Assembly (NCBI GenBank): GCA_944364075.1
Contig: CALVVZ010000006.1
Coordinates: 1-44,221, forward strand
Length of the DNA: 44,221 nucleotides
Reading direction: 5' to 3'
Origin: an uncultured Clostridia bacterium
GTDB taxonomy: Bacteria > Bacillota > Clostridia > Christensenellales > Aristaeellaceae
The position numbers and the translations under genes are program-made. This document shows, in pieces, positions 34,746 through 40,467 of the stretch (the first letter of the stretch is position 1; every line of letters begins with the position of its first letter). The notes below the pieces were generated by a model. It ran no database searches, was not told the origin of the DNA, and saw nothing but the letters and a program-made list of their open reading frames with translations.

Positions 34746-36140
34746 TCATATTGCCAGTCCCGGTGTATATACCTTTGCTTCGTCTGAAAATTCATAGGTC
34801 ATAAAAGATAGCATGGCATCCTTTTCTGGAGCAAAAATTGCGCAACGTGTTTCTCGACTGCGGACATTGACGCGTGCGCATAGTGCATACTGATCGTTCA
34901 AGAAAGCCTCAACAATGTCTTCGTCAAAAATCACATGAAGATGTAGTGGTTTGTCTACAACATCTTCAAACAGCTTCAGTGAAGAAAATTCAAATGGCTT
35001 TCGTCCCTCTCCTTGGGACACAATGCGCATTCTTTGCTGCGCCAAATCAATCTCCACACAAATTCCATTGTCCATGTCTAGCCGCAATCCGCAAGCTCCC
35101 GTGCGTTGAGGCGCGAAGTCCACGTGAACGCCAAAATTTGTGTATCGTTGTGCTGCTGCAACAGTGACACCGTCTTCGGTGATTGTCGAGGCGTGAAGAT
35201 CTACATATTTTTTCTCGCCTTCAATACGCTTTGCGTAAGTTGGCTCCAGCTGGCTAGCCAGCCGTCCGTCTGGCAAAGGATATATTACTCGGGGCAGATT
35301 GAGATGGCCCCCCCATTCCTGACCGCAATAGTTTAGCGGAATCCATCCAAACAGGAGATGTCCATCTTTGTATGGTGTCAGTTGCGCTGCACAAAGGTCC
35401 TCACCGTCCAGCTGATATGCTGGCAGTGTGTTCCAGTCCTGGCTATCAATCGTGGTATTCGCTTCACCCAGCCAATACGTCGGTGCTCCTACCCAGTGCA
35501 CGCTTTGCCGTGCCAAACTGGTCAGTAGAACCCAGCGTTGTCCTATATGTATCATTTGGCTGCATTCGGGTTCTTTACATTGGTACAGATCTACCTGGGC
35601 ATTGGGGAAATGCAATAGCATGCGTTGCGCATGCCCCTCTTGGAAAAGAGGTCCTGTGATCATCACCCCGCAGTCCATCCCAGTACCAAAGCCATTATGT
35701 TCATTAGAGAAGTACGCTGTTGCCGTAGCCCGGGGCGCCTGCATATCCCCATCAAAAAACATGGAATAGTCACGTGCCCCTGCTGGAATAGCTTTTGTAT
35801 CCAGCGCAAGGGTATAATCATGCATTGGTTCACGCCAAGTGACCAGGTCGGAACTTTCCATCGTCGTCATACCGTTTGCTGTTCCTCGACTGCCAAGGAA
35901 GCGTCCATCCCACGGGAGGACGGAGCAAACCGGGTTAGGCAACCGTTCCTCATGCCATGTGCAAAAATCCCCTGTTATTGCAACTGCGCCTTCTTTGCAG
36001 ACCACGTGATTAGGGTTTTTGAAGCAGTCATCGCAGCGAAGGACTCCATTGGGAATGAGATAAAAAAGATACAGTGTGCCATTTTCATAGTATGGGTGTA
36101 CATCTCCAATATGCCACTGTTTGGGACGAAAATGAAGCAT
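34746..36140 (-). CDS. GH32-family-like glycosidase, cytoplasmic
   Basis: A 464-residue protein closely similar in plan to the secreted GH32 at 39082. It starts HFRPKQWHIGDVHPYYENGT, where GDVHPYY stands in the place of NDPNG. It has a middle RDY (ARDYSMFFDGDM, for RDP) and EPECSQMIHIGQRW (for ECP), then QEWGGHLNLPRVIYPLPDG and the GH32 C-terminal sandwich with DIVEAFLNDQYALCARV. The putative Asp and Glu are kept while flanking residues differ. AGAGGA precedes the ATG. It begins 15 bp after the 36156 gene, in the same transcript. Confidence 0.75.
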   Translation of the reverse strand: MLHFRPKQWHIGDVHPYYENGTLYLFYLIPNGVLRCDDCFKNPNHVVCKEGAVAITGDFCTWHEERLPNPVCSVLPWDGRFLGSRGTANGMTTMESSDLVTWREPMHDYTLALDTKAIPAGARDYSMFFDGDMQAPRATATAYFSNEHNGFGTGMDCGVMITGPLFQEGHAQRMLLHFPNAQVDLYQCKEPECSQMIHIGQRWVLLTSLARQSVHWVGAPTYWLGEANTTIDSQDWNTLPAYQLDGEDLCAAQLTPYKDGHLLFGWIPLNYCGQEWGGHLNLPRVIYPLPDGRLASQLEPTYAKRIEGEKKYVDLHASTITEDGVTVAAAQRYTNFGVHVDFAPQRTGACGLRLDMDNGICVEIDLAQQRMRIVSQGEGRKPFEFSSLKLFEDVVDKPLHLHVIFDEDIVEAFLNDQYALCARVNVRSRETRCAIFAPEKDAMLSFMTYEFSDEAKVYTPGLAI

Positions 36141-36155
36141 TTCAAATCTTTCCTC

Positions 36156-37664
36156 TCAATAAGGTTGGGATGGCGCCATTTCACTGGCTAATAAGGAATC
36201 CATATATTTTCCACCGACCGTACAAATTTTCAATTCGTTGGTAGGTAGAAAAATTCTCCGGGTTATCGCTTGTTTGTCATTTGCAAATACTTCCACCACA
36301 GACGCATCAATATATACCGTCACATGCGGAACCTCTCCCGGAGAGAACCGTATAGGCGCGCATTCTTCCACCGCACCTACTGGACTTCCCGAAGATCGTG
36401 CGTCCACACGGAGCTCTCCCTTTACAGGATCGCATAGGATTTCATACCAATTCTCGCTACCAACATGCAAGCCTGTAACATGTTCCGCGTCTTTACCTGT
36501 CCACTCAATGCGGCAGCATTGTGGCTGCTGTAGGTTTATGCACGCCATATCTTCGAGCTGTTTTCCAGTCCATTGCTGTGTATGATATGCCAATGCATCA
36601 ATTTCAGGCGCGGCAGCAATCCCCAATGAGCCATCATTCGCTCTCCAGAGAACCCGAGGTAACCCCATAACGCCGCTCCAACCATACTGCTCGTAGTCTT
36701 CAGGAAGGTTGGTGCGTAGCCATGCAAACGCAATCTGCCTTCCTTTGTCATCAATGTATGCCTCTGGCGCAAAGTACGTATCATCAATCCAGCTCATTCT
36801 TCCATGGATACGAGGCACAAACTTCTTTTCATCTAGTCTGCCAATATAATACTGACACCCTCTATTGTGAGAGATAAATAGCTGCAGGTATTCGTCTGTT
36901 GCCGCTCCACCATCCTTTGATGCAGGCAGTGGCAGAAAAGAAGGGCACATATCGTCTTCACTTTCGTCTGGGTGTTCATCGCAAATAGAATGGTCGTAAA
37001 ATCTGCCTTCCCAGTGCCACGTTTTTAAGTCTTTTGATGAAAAGAGTTCTGTCCAATCGCCCTTCATGGATGGACTGGCTTCCGGTGTGCGGCCATACTT
37101 GTTCAATATAAGCAGATTCCCCGTTTGCATATAGTATGTCTGGTTGCTCTTCCATATATTGCTAGGATCCGCACAAGCAACAGGTAACCCCTGCACACTC
37201 GCGATACCCCATTCGGATGAAGGAATTGCAACAGGTGCAACGCGTTCCCAAACATCATAGGGCGGCGTACTTTTCGCAAGCATAATTCCACAATAGCTAT
37301 CCTGATCTAGTTTGCGCTCTGGATGATTATATACCCAAAAACTCAAATAGGCGGTGCCATCGTCATCCACAAAGGCACCTCCGCTAAAGCAGCCATCATC
37401 ATGTGCTGTCTTTTCCAATGCATCTGGATGATGGCGCCAATGGATAAGGTCTCGACTTGTCACATGCCCCCAACAAAACCCCTTCTCAGGGTGATGATAT
37501 AAGTACATCATGTGATGTAATCCCTGTGCATAAAAACAACCATTGGGGTCACCGGGGCGTCCGTCTCCGTCTGGAACGCAGAAGTGATATTGGGGACGCC
37601 ATGAATCTTGTAATAGTTGTTCTCGATAGCGCCGTGTTGCTACAGCATCTTGCGTCTTGTTCAT
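36156..37664 (-). CDS. GH32 beta-fructosidase-like enzyme, cytoplasmic
   Basis: A 502-residue GH32 protein. The nucleophile box is GDPNGCFYAQG near residue 38 and is followed by GHVTSRDLIHWRHHPDAL. The RDP box reads ADPSNIWK. The ECP box reads DDMCPSFLPL, lacking Glu in the usual place but with acidic residues just before. LFISHNRGCQYYIGRLDEK and HGRMSWIDDTYFAPEAYID follow, a pattern of a GH32 subgroup. The C-terminal sandwich ends VVEVFANDKQAITRRIF. It probably hydrolyses imported fructo-oligosaccharides or a sucrose-like sugar. GAGGAG is 10 nt before the ATG. It is first in its transcript, directly behind a TAACGTTA operator and the palindromic element. Confidence 0.85.
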   Translation of the reverse strand: MNKTQDAVATRRYREQLLQDSWRPQYHFCVPDGDGRPGDPNGCFYAQGLHHMMYLYHHPEKGFCWGHVTSRDLIHWRHHPDALEKTAHDDGCFSGGAFVDDDGTAYLSFWVYNHPERKLDQDSYCGIMLAKSTPPYDVWERVAPVAIPSSEWGIASVQGLPVACADPSNIWKSNQTYYMQTGNLLILNKYGRTPEASPSMKGDWTELFSSKDLKTWHWEGRFYDHSICDEHPDESEDDMCPSFLPLPASKDGGAATDEYLQLFISHNRGCQYYIGRLDEKKFVPRIHGRMSWIDDTYFAPEAYIDDKGRQIAFAWLRTNLPEDYEQYGWSGVMGLPRVLWRANDGSLGIAAAPEIDALAYHTQQWTGKQLEDMACINLQQPQCCRIEWTGKDAEHVTGLHVGSENWYEILCDPVKGELRVDARSSGSPVGAVEECAPIRFSPGEVPHVTVYIDASVVEVFANDKQAITRRIFLPTNELKICTVGGKYMDSLLASEMAPSQPY

Positions 37665-37708: not shown

Positions 37709-37949
37709 AGAATGGGTATTATACCCATTCCAGACTGTCAAAAACCTCCCGGGAGGTGTCGGAAGGGCCGCAGCCCCTCTGACTTTCATTCGTATCCGGC
37801 TGCTTTGCCGACGGGGCAGGTTGTTGATTTTGCATGCAAAATCAACAATTTACAAATTCGTGAAACCTCTGGTTGACCGAATTTGCTTCCTCGTAAAAGT
37901 GGCGGAAGTCACTTTTTCGACACGCTGGAATGGGTATAATACCCATTCT
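37709..37949. mobile_element. MITE-like element with palindromic terminal inverted repeats
   Basis: The 23-bp ends (37709-37731 and 37927-37949) are perfect inverted copies of each other, and each is itself a palindrome (GAATGGGTAT-N-ATACCCATTC). Similarity continues inward for about 15 bp with mismatches. Inside are CCTCCCGGGAGG (37745-37756), a perfect 28-bp palindrome centred on TGCATGCA (37821-37848), AAATTCG/CGAATTT (37854-37884) and AAAAGTG/CACTTTT (37895-37916), a terminator-like hairpin. There is no ORF. Its right end is 3 bp from the lacI stop. No clear target duplication was seen. Confidence 0.7.
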
Positions 37950-37952
37950 CCT

Positions 37953-38948
37953 TTACTGTTTTGATCCTAATGACACCACTGATGCACGCTCAATGAGCGA
38001 CGGACGAATATACTTGTGAATGACTGTGTCCTTTGCTTGTTCATCTTTATCCATGATCTTCTTGAGAATAATATCCACAGATTCCTGTGCAATACGATTC
38101 ATAGGCTGGCTTATGGCTGTAATATCCATCAACGACACCCATGGAATATCGTCCTGAATAATTACGCTCATGTCTTGTGGAATCTCCATCATCAGCTTGT
38201 GGCATGCTGTGATCGTTGCATAGCCAAGGATATTTGTTCCCGCGACAATAGCTGTAGGATGCAGTCGGTTAATGTTTTCCATAACTTCGTCTTCTACAAA
38301 CGCATTTGTACCAAATGAAAGAATGAAGCGCTCATCGACTGCTAAACCATGCTCAGCAAATGCAGCTCTATAGCCATCAGCGCGGCCTTCCCAGTTCACG
38401 TCCAGCAGCAGGATTCTGCGATGCCCTTCTTCCAGCAATCGACGTGTCGCCAGTTTGACGCCATATCGGTCGTCAATGGACAAGCTATCAATCTGATCAT
38501 AAACATTACGATACAGCTGTAGCACCGGGAAATCATGATTCTGGAGAAAATCGCTTACCTGCGTATCATTTCTATGCACAGGTGTAATGATAATGCCATC
38601 CACCCGGGCTCCCCATAGCATTGACAAGCCCGACATTTCCATTTCCATATCCTCATTGCTAAAAGATACCAGCACAGAAAATCCTTTAGCTCGAAGGCGT
38701 TGTTCAATCAAAGCATTAACCTGCATATAGAAGCTGTTCTTCACATCCGCTACCACAATGCCAATTGTATTGCTGTGATTGTTACGCAATGCACGGGCTA
38801 GGCGATTAGGCTGATAGCCAAGTTTTTTCATGACCTCCAGGACATTTTTTCTAGTAGATTCACGTACCCCTTCCATCCCTCGGGCCACCCGCGAGGCCGT
38901 CATGACTGATACCCCGGCAGCTTTTGCTACTTCCTTAATTGTCGCCAT
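37953..38948 (-). CDS. LacI-family transcriptional regulator
   Basis: A 331-residue repressor of standard length. The DNA-binding part is MATIKEVAKAAGVSVMTASR with the hinge LGYQPNRLARALRN. The sugar-binding core starts TIGIVVADVKNSFYMQVNAL and has VDGIIITPVHRND, GRADGYRAAFAEHGL and the C-terminal ISQPMNRIAQESVDIILKKI. GGAGG is 8 nt before the ATG. It lies between the transporter and glycosidase transcripts, both of which carry TAACGTTA sites. It therefore probably represses them until a fructo-oligosaccharide or similar sugar binds. Confidence 0.93.
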   Translation of the reverse strand: MATIKEVAKAAGVSVMTASRVARGMEGVRESTRKNVLEVMKKLGYQPNRLARALRNNHSNTIGIVVADVKNSFYMQVNALIEQRLRAKGFSVLVSFSNEDMEMEMSGLSMLWGARVDGIIITPVHRNDTQVSDFLQNHDFPVLQLYRNVYDQIDSLSIDDRYGVKLATRRLLEEGHRRILLLDVNWEGRADGYRAAFAEHGLAVDERFILSFGTNAFVEDEVMENINRLHPTAIVAGTNILGYATITACHKLMMEIPQDMSVIIQDDIPWVSLMDITAISQPMNRIAQESVDIILKKIMDKDEQAKDTVIHKYIRPSLIERASVVSLGSKQ

Positions 38949-39053: not shown

Positions 39054-39095
39054 GCTCTCCTCATTTAAGGTTACGCTCTCCTCATTTAAGGTTAC
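39054..39095. repeat. Exact tandem duplication of 21 bp at the end of the secreted GH32 gene
   Basis: 39054-39074 and 39075-39095 are identical. On the minus strand the upstream copy contains the last codons and stop of the GH32 gene plus GAGGAG; the second copy repeats these just after the stop. Confidence 0.9.
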
Positions 39096-40434
39096 GCACA
39101 GTAATAAGCGTCGTCTGTCCTCCCTCTATCCTCATTTGCTCACACTGCGTAGGCTCTTGCATTCTTGCTGCAAGAGACCATTGATCATCCAAGAAAACTT
39201 CCAATATGTTTTCTTCACCGATCACTTGCATCTCATGCGTTCCCGCCAAGCTTCCTGGCGTTAGCTGGTAAGACACATGCATAAGAGAATCATTTTGGAA
39301 CACCGCAAACAGTCCCGTTGCATCATCTAGCACAATCTGACCATTTCCGCAATGGAAGGTAATGCGTTTCCCCGCTTCCAAGAAAAATGTTGCTTGCGCA
39401 TGCCAACGTGAAAAATCACCCTGAACCTTGTCTTGCCCAGTAGCAACCGGCTCTTCACTTATCATCGTTGCTACTGCCGGTGCAATCGATGTCGTAAGCG
39501 TACCATCTGGTTGCTGTGAAATTTTAAGCGGTATGCTCAAGTGTCCGCCCCAACTTCCGCCATTCCAATTTTCTGCAATCCATCCCCAGAGATAATAGCC
39601 GTCCGGTCCCTGGGCAACCTGCGCAGCGCACACGTCTTCACTGGTAAGAACATGTTCTTCTTTCTCGTTCCAGTCCTGTTCGAAAATTCCCTTGCCTTCG
39701 TCACCTATATAATAGCTGAGACGTCCCACATGGTTTTCGTGGCGACGGGCTAGACTCACAAACACATACCATCGGTTTCCGATTTTCAACATCTGCGGAC
39801 ATTCAGGTTCGCCGTTCAGCCCGTCTGGATAATCAATCAATGCGGTATCTATCGGATTCCATGCGTTGAGCTGATCTGACTTAGTGCTTGCGATTCCCAG
39901 CGCGCATTTCATTCCCAGCCCTCTGCCTTGCAGCTGATTCGTACGGTAGGCTGTACATATGACACGATACACCTGCTCGTCGGGATCCCAAAACACGTAG
40001 GGGTCACGCTGTCCAATAAAAGTAGTATACCCCATCGGAATCGCGTACTCATTGCCCGGGTTGTGCCAGGTCAAAAGATCATCACTTTCTGATGCAGACA
40101 TGCTTGTTCCGCTTCCATACCAGGAATAGTATTTTTCTCCTGCCTGAAGCACGCCAAGAACATAATATGCTGCAAGCTGGCCTGAAGTGCAGGTTATGTC
40201 TTTAGGCGTCCAGTGGATCATATCCTTCGAGCATAACAGCGTAGCTTGGAAGCCATTTGGTCTTAAGTAAAACATATACCAGCTATCTTCCGCAGCATTG
40301 TAAAACGGATGTACATCTCCAACATTTTCATTAGGATAATAATGCAGCGATTCAGCCATGCTAACGCCTCCCCAAGGGAATATACTTGTCATGAGCAGTA
40401 CAGCTATTAAGCGCTTCCAGTGAATTCGCTTCAT
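39082..40434 (-). CDS. Secreted GH32-family glycosidase
   Basis: A 450-residue exported enzyme. The signal peptide MKRIHWKRLIAVLLMTSIFP is followed by GGVSMAES with a cleavage site near SMA. Catalytic boxes are clear: NVGDVHPFYNAAEDSWY (for NDPNG), GQRDPYVFWDPD (RDP) and GEPECPQMLKIGNRW (ECP, acid/base Glu). WGGHLSIPLKISQQPDG leads into the beta-sandwich with ENILEVFLDDQWSLAARM. It probably cuts beta-fructan outside the cell to feed the ABC importer. GGAGA is 7 nt before the ATG at 40434; the frame opens at 40449. It is the last gene of the transporter transcript, after a strong hairpin. Confidence 0.85.
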   Translation of the reverse strand: MKRIHWKRLIAVLLMTSIFPWGGVSMAESLHYYPNENVGDVHPFYNAAEDSWYMFYLRPNGFQATLLCSKDMIHWTPKDITCTSGQLAAYYVLGVLQAGEKYYSWYGSGTSMSASESDDLLTWHNPGNEYAIPMGYTTFIGQRDPYVFWDPDEQVYRVICTAYRTNQLQGRGLGMKCALGIASTKSDQLNAWNPIDTALIDYPDGLNGEPECPQMLKIGNRWYVFVSLARRHENHVGRLSYYIGDEGKGIFEQDWNEKEEHVLTSEDVCAAQVAQGPDGYYLWGWIAENWNGGSWGGHLSIPLKISQQPDGTLTTSIAPAVATMISEEPVATGQDKVQGDFSRWHAQATFFLEAGKRITFHCGNGQIVLDDATGLFAVFQNDSLMHVSYQLTPGSLAGTHEMQVIGEENILEVFLDDQWSLAARMQEPTQCEQMRIEGGQTTLITVRNLK

Positions 40435-40467
40435 ATATTCTCTCCACATTGATCACAATTACTTTGC

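Follow-up and report, generated by a model that had tools for sequence, protein, structure and literature searches.

A hairpin-rich mobile element in gut Clostridia that probably duplicates whole target hairpins and shares its ends with an IS1182-family insertion sequence

Variable direct repeats are listed in ISfinder for the IS1182 family of insertion sequences (IS). One member of this family, IS1272, inserts at hairpins and removes them (PMC5678879, PMC4923244). PMC5678879 reasons that if the element's 3' ends were instead joined, on either strand, at the hairpin's 5' foot, the whole hairpin would be duplicated, and draws this route as pathway b; the same paper remarks that a review mentioning palindromic targets for the IS1182 family gave no detailed data. 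Whole-hairpin duplication was found in the open-licence literature only as this hypothetical pathway (PMC5678879), and an earlier description may exist. The unit analysed here lies in a 44,221-nucleotide stretch of DNA from an uncultured Clostridia bacterium (the window). It is very probably a non-autonomous transposable element (MITE) that is moved in trans by a DDE transposase of the IS1182 family.

A preliminary description of this DNA reported a 241-bp element bounded by palindromic terminal repeats. The palindromes are real. Positions 37709-37731 and 37927-37949 are perfect reverse complements of 23 bp each, each of these ends contains a 21-bp odd-centre palindrome, GAATGGGTAT(T/A)ATACCCATTC, and a perfect 28-bp palindrome is present inside (P3 in Table 1). 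The predicted fold of a 281-nt stretch reaches -127.6 kcal/mol, compared with -71.1 +/- 5.4 kcal/mol for shuffled sequences (z = -10.55, 0 of 200 shuffles). The boundaries of the element are placed differently by its copies. Where the preliminary description had looked to BLASTN for multiple copies, and had regarded a single copy conserved at this position in all relatives as evidence against mobility, about 40 places in the genome match positions 23-219 of the 241-bp unit in whole or in part. These copies, termed MITE-A, occur in both orientations with 77-90% identity. Their common part has CAGACTGTC at its start and GACACGCTG at its end, and the flanking hairpins vary from copy to copy. Because the copies share these ends and differ in the hairpins beyond them, the mobile unit proper is the 197 bp from 37731 to 37927, and the palindromes outside it are part of the insertion site. 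The 23-bp palindromic ends are, on this comparison of sequences, a target hairpin that was duplicated on insertion and that lies outside the element, whose own terminal inverted repeats (CAGACTGTC / GACACGCTG) are short and imperfect.

Table 1. Coordinates of the element, its parts and the neighbouring genes in the window
Feature	Position	Strand	Basis or remark
Mobile element, 197-bp copy of MITE-A; would move without an ORF of its own	37731..37927	+	Part common to about 40 copies, query positions 23-219
Putative target hairpin, left copy, GAATGGGTATTATACCCATTC	37710..37730	.	Direct repeat of 37928-37948 with 1 central mismatch; other copies have other hairpins
Putative target hairpin, right copy, GAATGGGTATAATACCCATTC	37928..37948	.	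Direct repeat of 37710-37730
Left terminal repeat, CAGACTGTC	37731..37739	+	Conserved end of copies; same end type as the G023 IS, CAGCCTGTC
Right terminal repeat, GACACGCTG (minus strand: CAGCGTGTC)	37919..37927	-	Conserved end of copies
Inner hairpin P1	37758..37783	+	Covarying helix 6-16/21-32 in alignment A4; target of nested MITE-B in L071
Inner hairpin P2, conserved CGTAT flank	37791..37818	+	Alignment A4
Inner hairpin P3, the perfect 28-bp palindrome	37821..37848	+	Covarying helix in relatives
Inner hairpin P4	37853..37885	+	Alignment A1 and fold
Inner hairpin P5, adjoins right end	37892..37919	+	Covarying terminal helix in A1
lacI-type regulator gene	37953..38948	-	ORF; identity from LacI-type N-terminus in the sequence
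GH32-like ORF, downstream of element	36156..37664	-	ORF; GH32 is the name given in the preliminary description

The end motif CAGNCTGTYRAAAAA has 126 exact matches in the genome and the reversed pattern, which serves as a control, has none. MITE-B, another element family that shares this end, accounts for some of the matches. The true number of copies is probably above the count, since many contigs stop inside these repeats. MITE-B (CAGACTGTTGAAAAAGGCATG...) occurs at L071:1915, L076:2229, L077:2016, L087:360 and many other places in the window's genome. Its copies also lie beside hairpins and are at times nested within the hairpins of MITE-A. The contig of L087 (G000:C166) forms one large inverted repeat centred on its midpoint, and misassembly at these repeats may be the cause. 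A minimal 47-bp element in another genome (L141:1501-1547, G013), CAGCCTGTCAAAAAAGGTCGCAAGTAGCGGCCTTTTTTGACAGGCTG, consists of little beyond both ends folded as one hairpin.

In the window, the copy lies between a lacI-type gene and a GH32-like ORF that are both on the minus strand. The ORF coordinates agree with the placement given earlier: the end of lacI is 3 bp from 37949, and the start of the GH32 ORF is on the other side of the element. A position between a regulator and an operon would suit a non-mobile host regulatory structure particular to the lacI-GH32 interval, but the genome has about 40 copies, at loci and between flanks that are unrelated to one another. This makes the explanation extremely improbable, and we rejected it on the copy number together with the target duplications described below. 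The target hairpin of the window copy, GAATGGGTATnATACCCATTC, directly follows the lacI stop codon. There is no T-run after it on the lacI strand, which sets it apart from typical intrinsic terminators; many of the other targets are such terminators. Three look-alike ORFs around lacI (34746-36140, 36156-37664 and 39082-40449) appear GH32-like by eye. The element ends (window 37731-37745, minus strand) read outwards as TTTTTGACAG and contain a -35-like TTGACA, for which visual inspection of the window revealed no -10 at a suitable distance.

Direct repeats of 16-43 bp flank 16 of the 24 copies that could be scored, and every repeat is a whole hairpin. The other eight scored copies have no long duplication, which counts against the MITE reading. 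Some copies have unlike hairpins on their two sides, perhaps through recombination or assembly, and one in a coding region (L008) apparently has only a 6-bp repeat. The duplication in the window is 21 bp long with one mismatch, at the centre, and this difference between its two hairpin copies is a further point against the MITE reading. The central T/A difference was considered as a sign of inverted duplication; since direct duplications without any difference exist at other copies, we take it as a point difference. At L001, L014 and L022, the two copies of the target hairpin differ from each other at three loop positions in all; in each, a base stands against its complement (T/A, C/G and G/C), and the number is too small for an interpretation.

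The association with hairpins is strongest at the junctions themselves. Among 86 distinct left junctions of both element families, 65 have a hairpin with a stem score of at least 6 that ends no more than 3 nt from the element, compared with 2.05% of 20,000 random positions on the same contigs. At a stem score of 9, the corresponding figures are 44 of 86 and 0.2%. The foot of the hairpin is 0-1 nt from the junction in 50 of the 55 junctions with a stem score of at least 7. A nested insertion at L071 has a similar arrangement, with MITE-B splitting MITE-A at its first hairpin and that hairpin left on both sides.

An empty site is available for one related copy. In the genome of locus L158 (G176, RGIG9056), two 34-bp terminators surround the element; its flanks align to the congeners G154 and G112, which have one such terminator after the same stop codon. 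This shows insertion with duplication of the complete terminator. The comparison covers a single locus, from a different genus within the family, and the left mobile end of the G176 element is decayed. The genomes G210, G112 and G087 are taken to be G174, G175 and G176, as inferred from their identical contig coordinates. The preliminary description had named empty sites and target duplications as signs to look for. Both occur among the copies, but the window copy yielded no empty site of its own, which weighs against the MITE reading; in the RGIG MAGs the search with the window locus matched the element alone. Plasmid and phage collections were searched and gave no match.

Complete IS elements with CAG-type ends are the likely drivers of the MITE, as judged from the resemblance of their ends. 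The one in G023 is 1503 bp long with a 451-aa ORF and the ends CAGCCTGTC...GACAGGCTG, and it is flanked by a 20-bp direct repeat, AAACTGCCCAAGGGCAGTAA, that contains a hairpin. Its transposase has the domains PF13751 and PF05598 and scores 410.3 bits (cut-off 270) with NF033551, the IS1182 equivalog model. A second relative, L163, has the ends CAGACCATC...GATGGTCTG, a 22-bp hairpin duplication (AGCCTTGCATTTTTGCAAGGCT) and one stop in its transposase frame. In the window's genome, one contig ends 77 bp into an element that starts with CAGCCTGTCAAAAAAGG and has a ribosome-binding site and a start codon. This left end also occurs in other genera, where it mostly adjoins hairpins, and it is the one that bounds the complete IS in G023. 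A transposase with matching ends, as envisaged in the preliminary description, is present in G023, but the window's fragmented assembly has no IS1182 transposase above the cut-off and only pieces below it. The link to a driver in this genome is consequently made through the ends, and this also counts against the MITE/IS1182 reading.

Another group of IS1182-like elements with GGGGCTGT or GGGCGTG-type ends is separate (L031, L032, L034, L098-L100, L102, L103 and L105). These were considered as the driver and set aside; pieces of their transposase are present in the genome, but their ends are unlike those of the MITE. No hairpin duplication was seen at the few copies of this group that were examined. 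An ORF of 382 aa at L066:1351-2496 (G000:C8) is IS1182-like in its first part (DUF772) and by eye resembles another transposase type in its last part, possibly a nested insertion fused in frame.

The earlier suggestion of a MITE or another non-autonomous mobile unit is upheld. The unit is short and multi-copy, has no transposase of its own, shares its ends with an IS and is accompanied by target duplications and by an empty site for a related copy. The transposase would recognise an extruded hairpin or cruciform and, on either strand, would attach a 3' end of the element to the hairpin's 5' foot; we infer both the cruciform intermediate and the exact strand joints. Gap repair would then copy the entire hairpin. 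The observed junctions are those predicted by pathway b of PMC5678879. If the target is a terminator, a complete terminator would remain on the far side of the element, so insertion should be nearly harmless and a high copy number would be allowed. In the window, the target of this event would have been the hairpin directly after the lacI stop codon. In these copies, nature supplies clear cases of a DDE element whose insertion follows DNA structure and doubles a whole hairpin, and for one of them an empty site is known. The dozens of junctions per genome make hairpin-directed transposition testable. The copies also point to a covarying hairpin module that occurs across the family.

The evidence for this module comes from the interior of the element. 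Within the bacterial family, a covariance model built from 20 cores has matches in 87 of 200 genomes and in 29 of 50 genera, with at most 13 candidates scored per genome, and its weak matches may include chance matches to GC-rich hairpins. In an alignment of 44 sequences made without fitting to the structure, pairing holds for 95.0% of cells (82.1% when shuffled) and both sides change in 18 of the 30 pairs. The covariation score is 0.329; shuffled versions give 0.111 and slid versions no more than 0.074. Deriving the structure from the same 44 sequences gives it an advantage over the slid versions; the shift of the MITE-A rows by one alignment column in P3 works to its disadvantage. The unpaired linkers TCGTAT and ATTCCTTAC are conserved across genera. 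In several species, interior copies adjoin the same gene. At this place their stems differ by symmetrical changes, which exchange between copies could also have produced. Gene-context statistics from simple ORF calling were discarded as too noisy. Some cores in RGIG MAGs (L185, L191, L195 and L210) have an extra domain of hairpins, about 85 nt long, inside the P3 loop.

One explanation for these features is that the interior serves chiefly as a structured non-coding RNA, or as a terminator/attenuator array, selected for function after insertion, with transposition serving only to spread it. Such a role is compatible with mobility. It would fit the distribution across 87 of the 200 family genomes, the covariation, the conserved linkers and the copies beside the same gene, as well as older copies that have lost recognisable mobile ends and retain their stems. 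However, the interior matches no Rfam family at or above the gathering threshold, and the strand asymmetry expected of RNA is absent outside a few fixed columns. Departures of the G.U type outnumber A.C departures 49 to 11 overall and 15 to 11 when one column is removed; once three fixed G.U columns and a doubtful long-range helix are set aside, the local helices have about 33 G.T and 26 A.C departures. Because these are about equal, they do not tell whether the constraint acts on RNA or on DNA. Template switching in hairpins or gene conversion among copies could also yield the symmetrical stem changes. We regard a primary role as RNA or attenuator array as unlikely. For the multi-hairpin RNA that the preliminary description offered as an alternative, the interior shows strong covariation across the family, but the comparison of RNA with DNA is neutral.

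It is quite conceivable, if short of probable, that stem symmetry is kept by mutation and not by selection, through hairpin template switching and exchange between copies, and that the element is purely selfish DNA. G.U intermediates are few relative to full Watson-Crick swaps, each genome has many copies, and the stem variants resemble cassettes common to several loci. Correction of palindromes would nevertheless leave the conservation of the unpaired linkers across genera unexplained. A further possibility, which we consider tentatively, is that the array is an undescribed structured module (RNA or hairpin-forming DNA) of this gut Clostridia family. Hairpin-duplicating transposition of the IS1182 type would have distributed it, and selection on its structure would then have preserved it as its mobile ends decayed.

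The MITE described here resembles IS1272 and TnSha1 (PMC5678879, PMC4923244) in its proposed use of an IS1182-family transposase and in the choice of hairpins, in many cases terminators, through their structure and not their sequence. It differs in the outcome, since IS1272 deletes or replaces the hairpin without duplication and here the hairpin is kept and duplicated whole. Bacterial MITEs in general, such as those reviewed in PMC10969869, are likewise short and multi-copy, lack a transposase and share their ends with an IS. Compared with these, the present duplications are complete hairpins of variable length and not short sequences of fixed length, and the interior is a conserved covarying hairpin array. 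The abundance of extragenic palindromes recalls the REP and BIME elements with RAYT transposases (PMC2817692). Those elements are linked to an HUH tyrosine transposase, whereas the elements described here have inverted ends and target duplications and would be moved by a DDE transposase.
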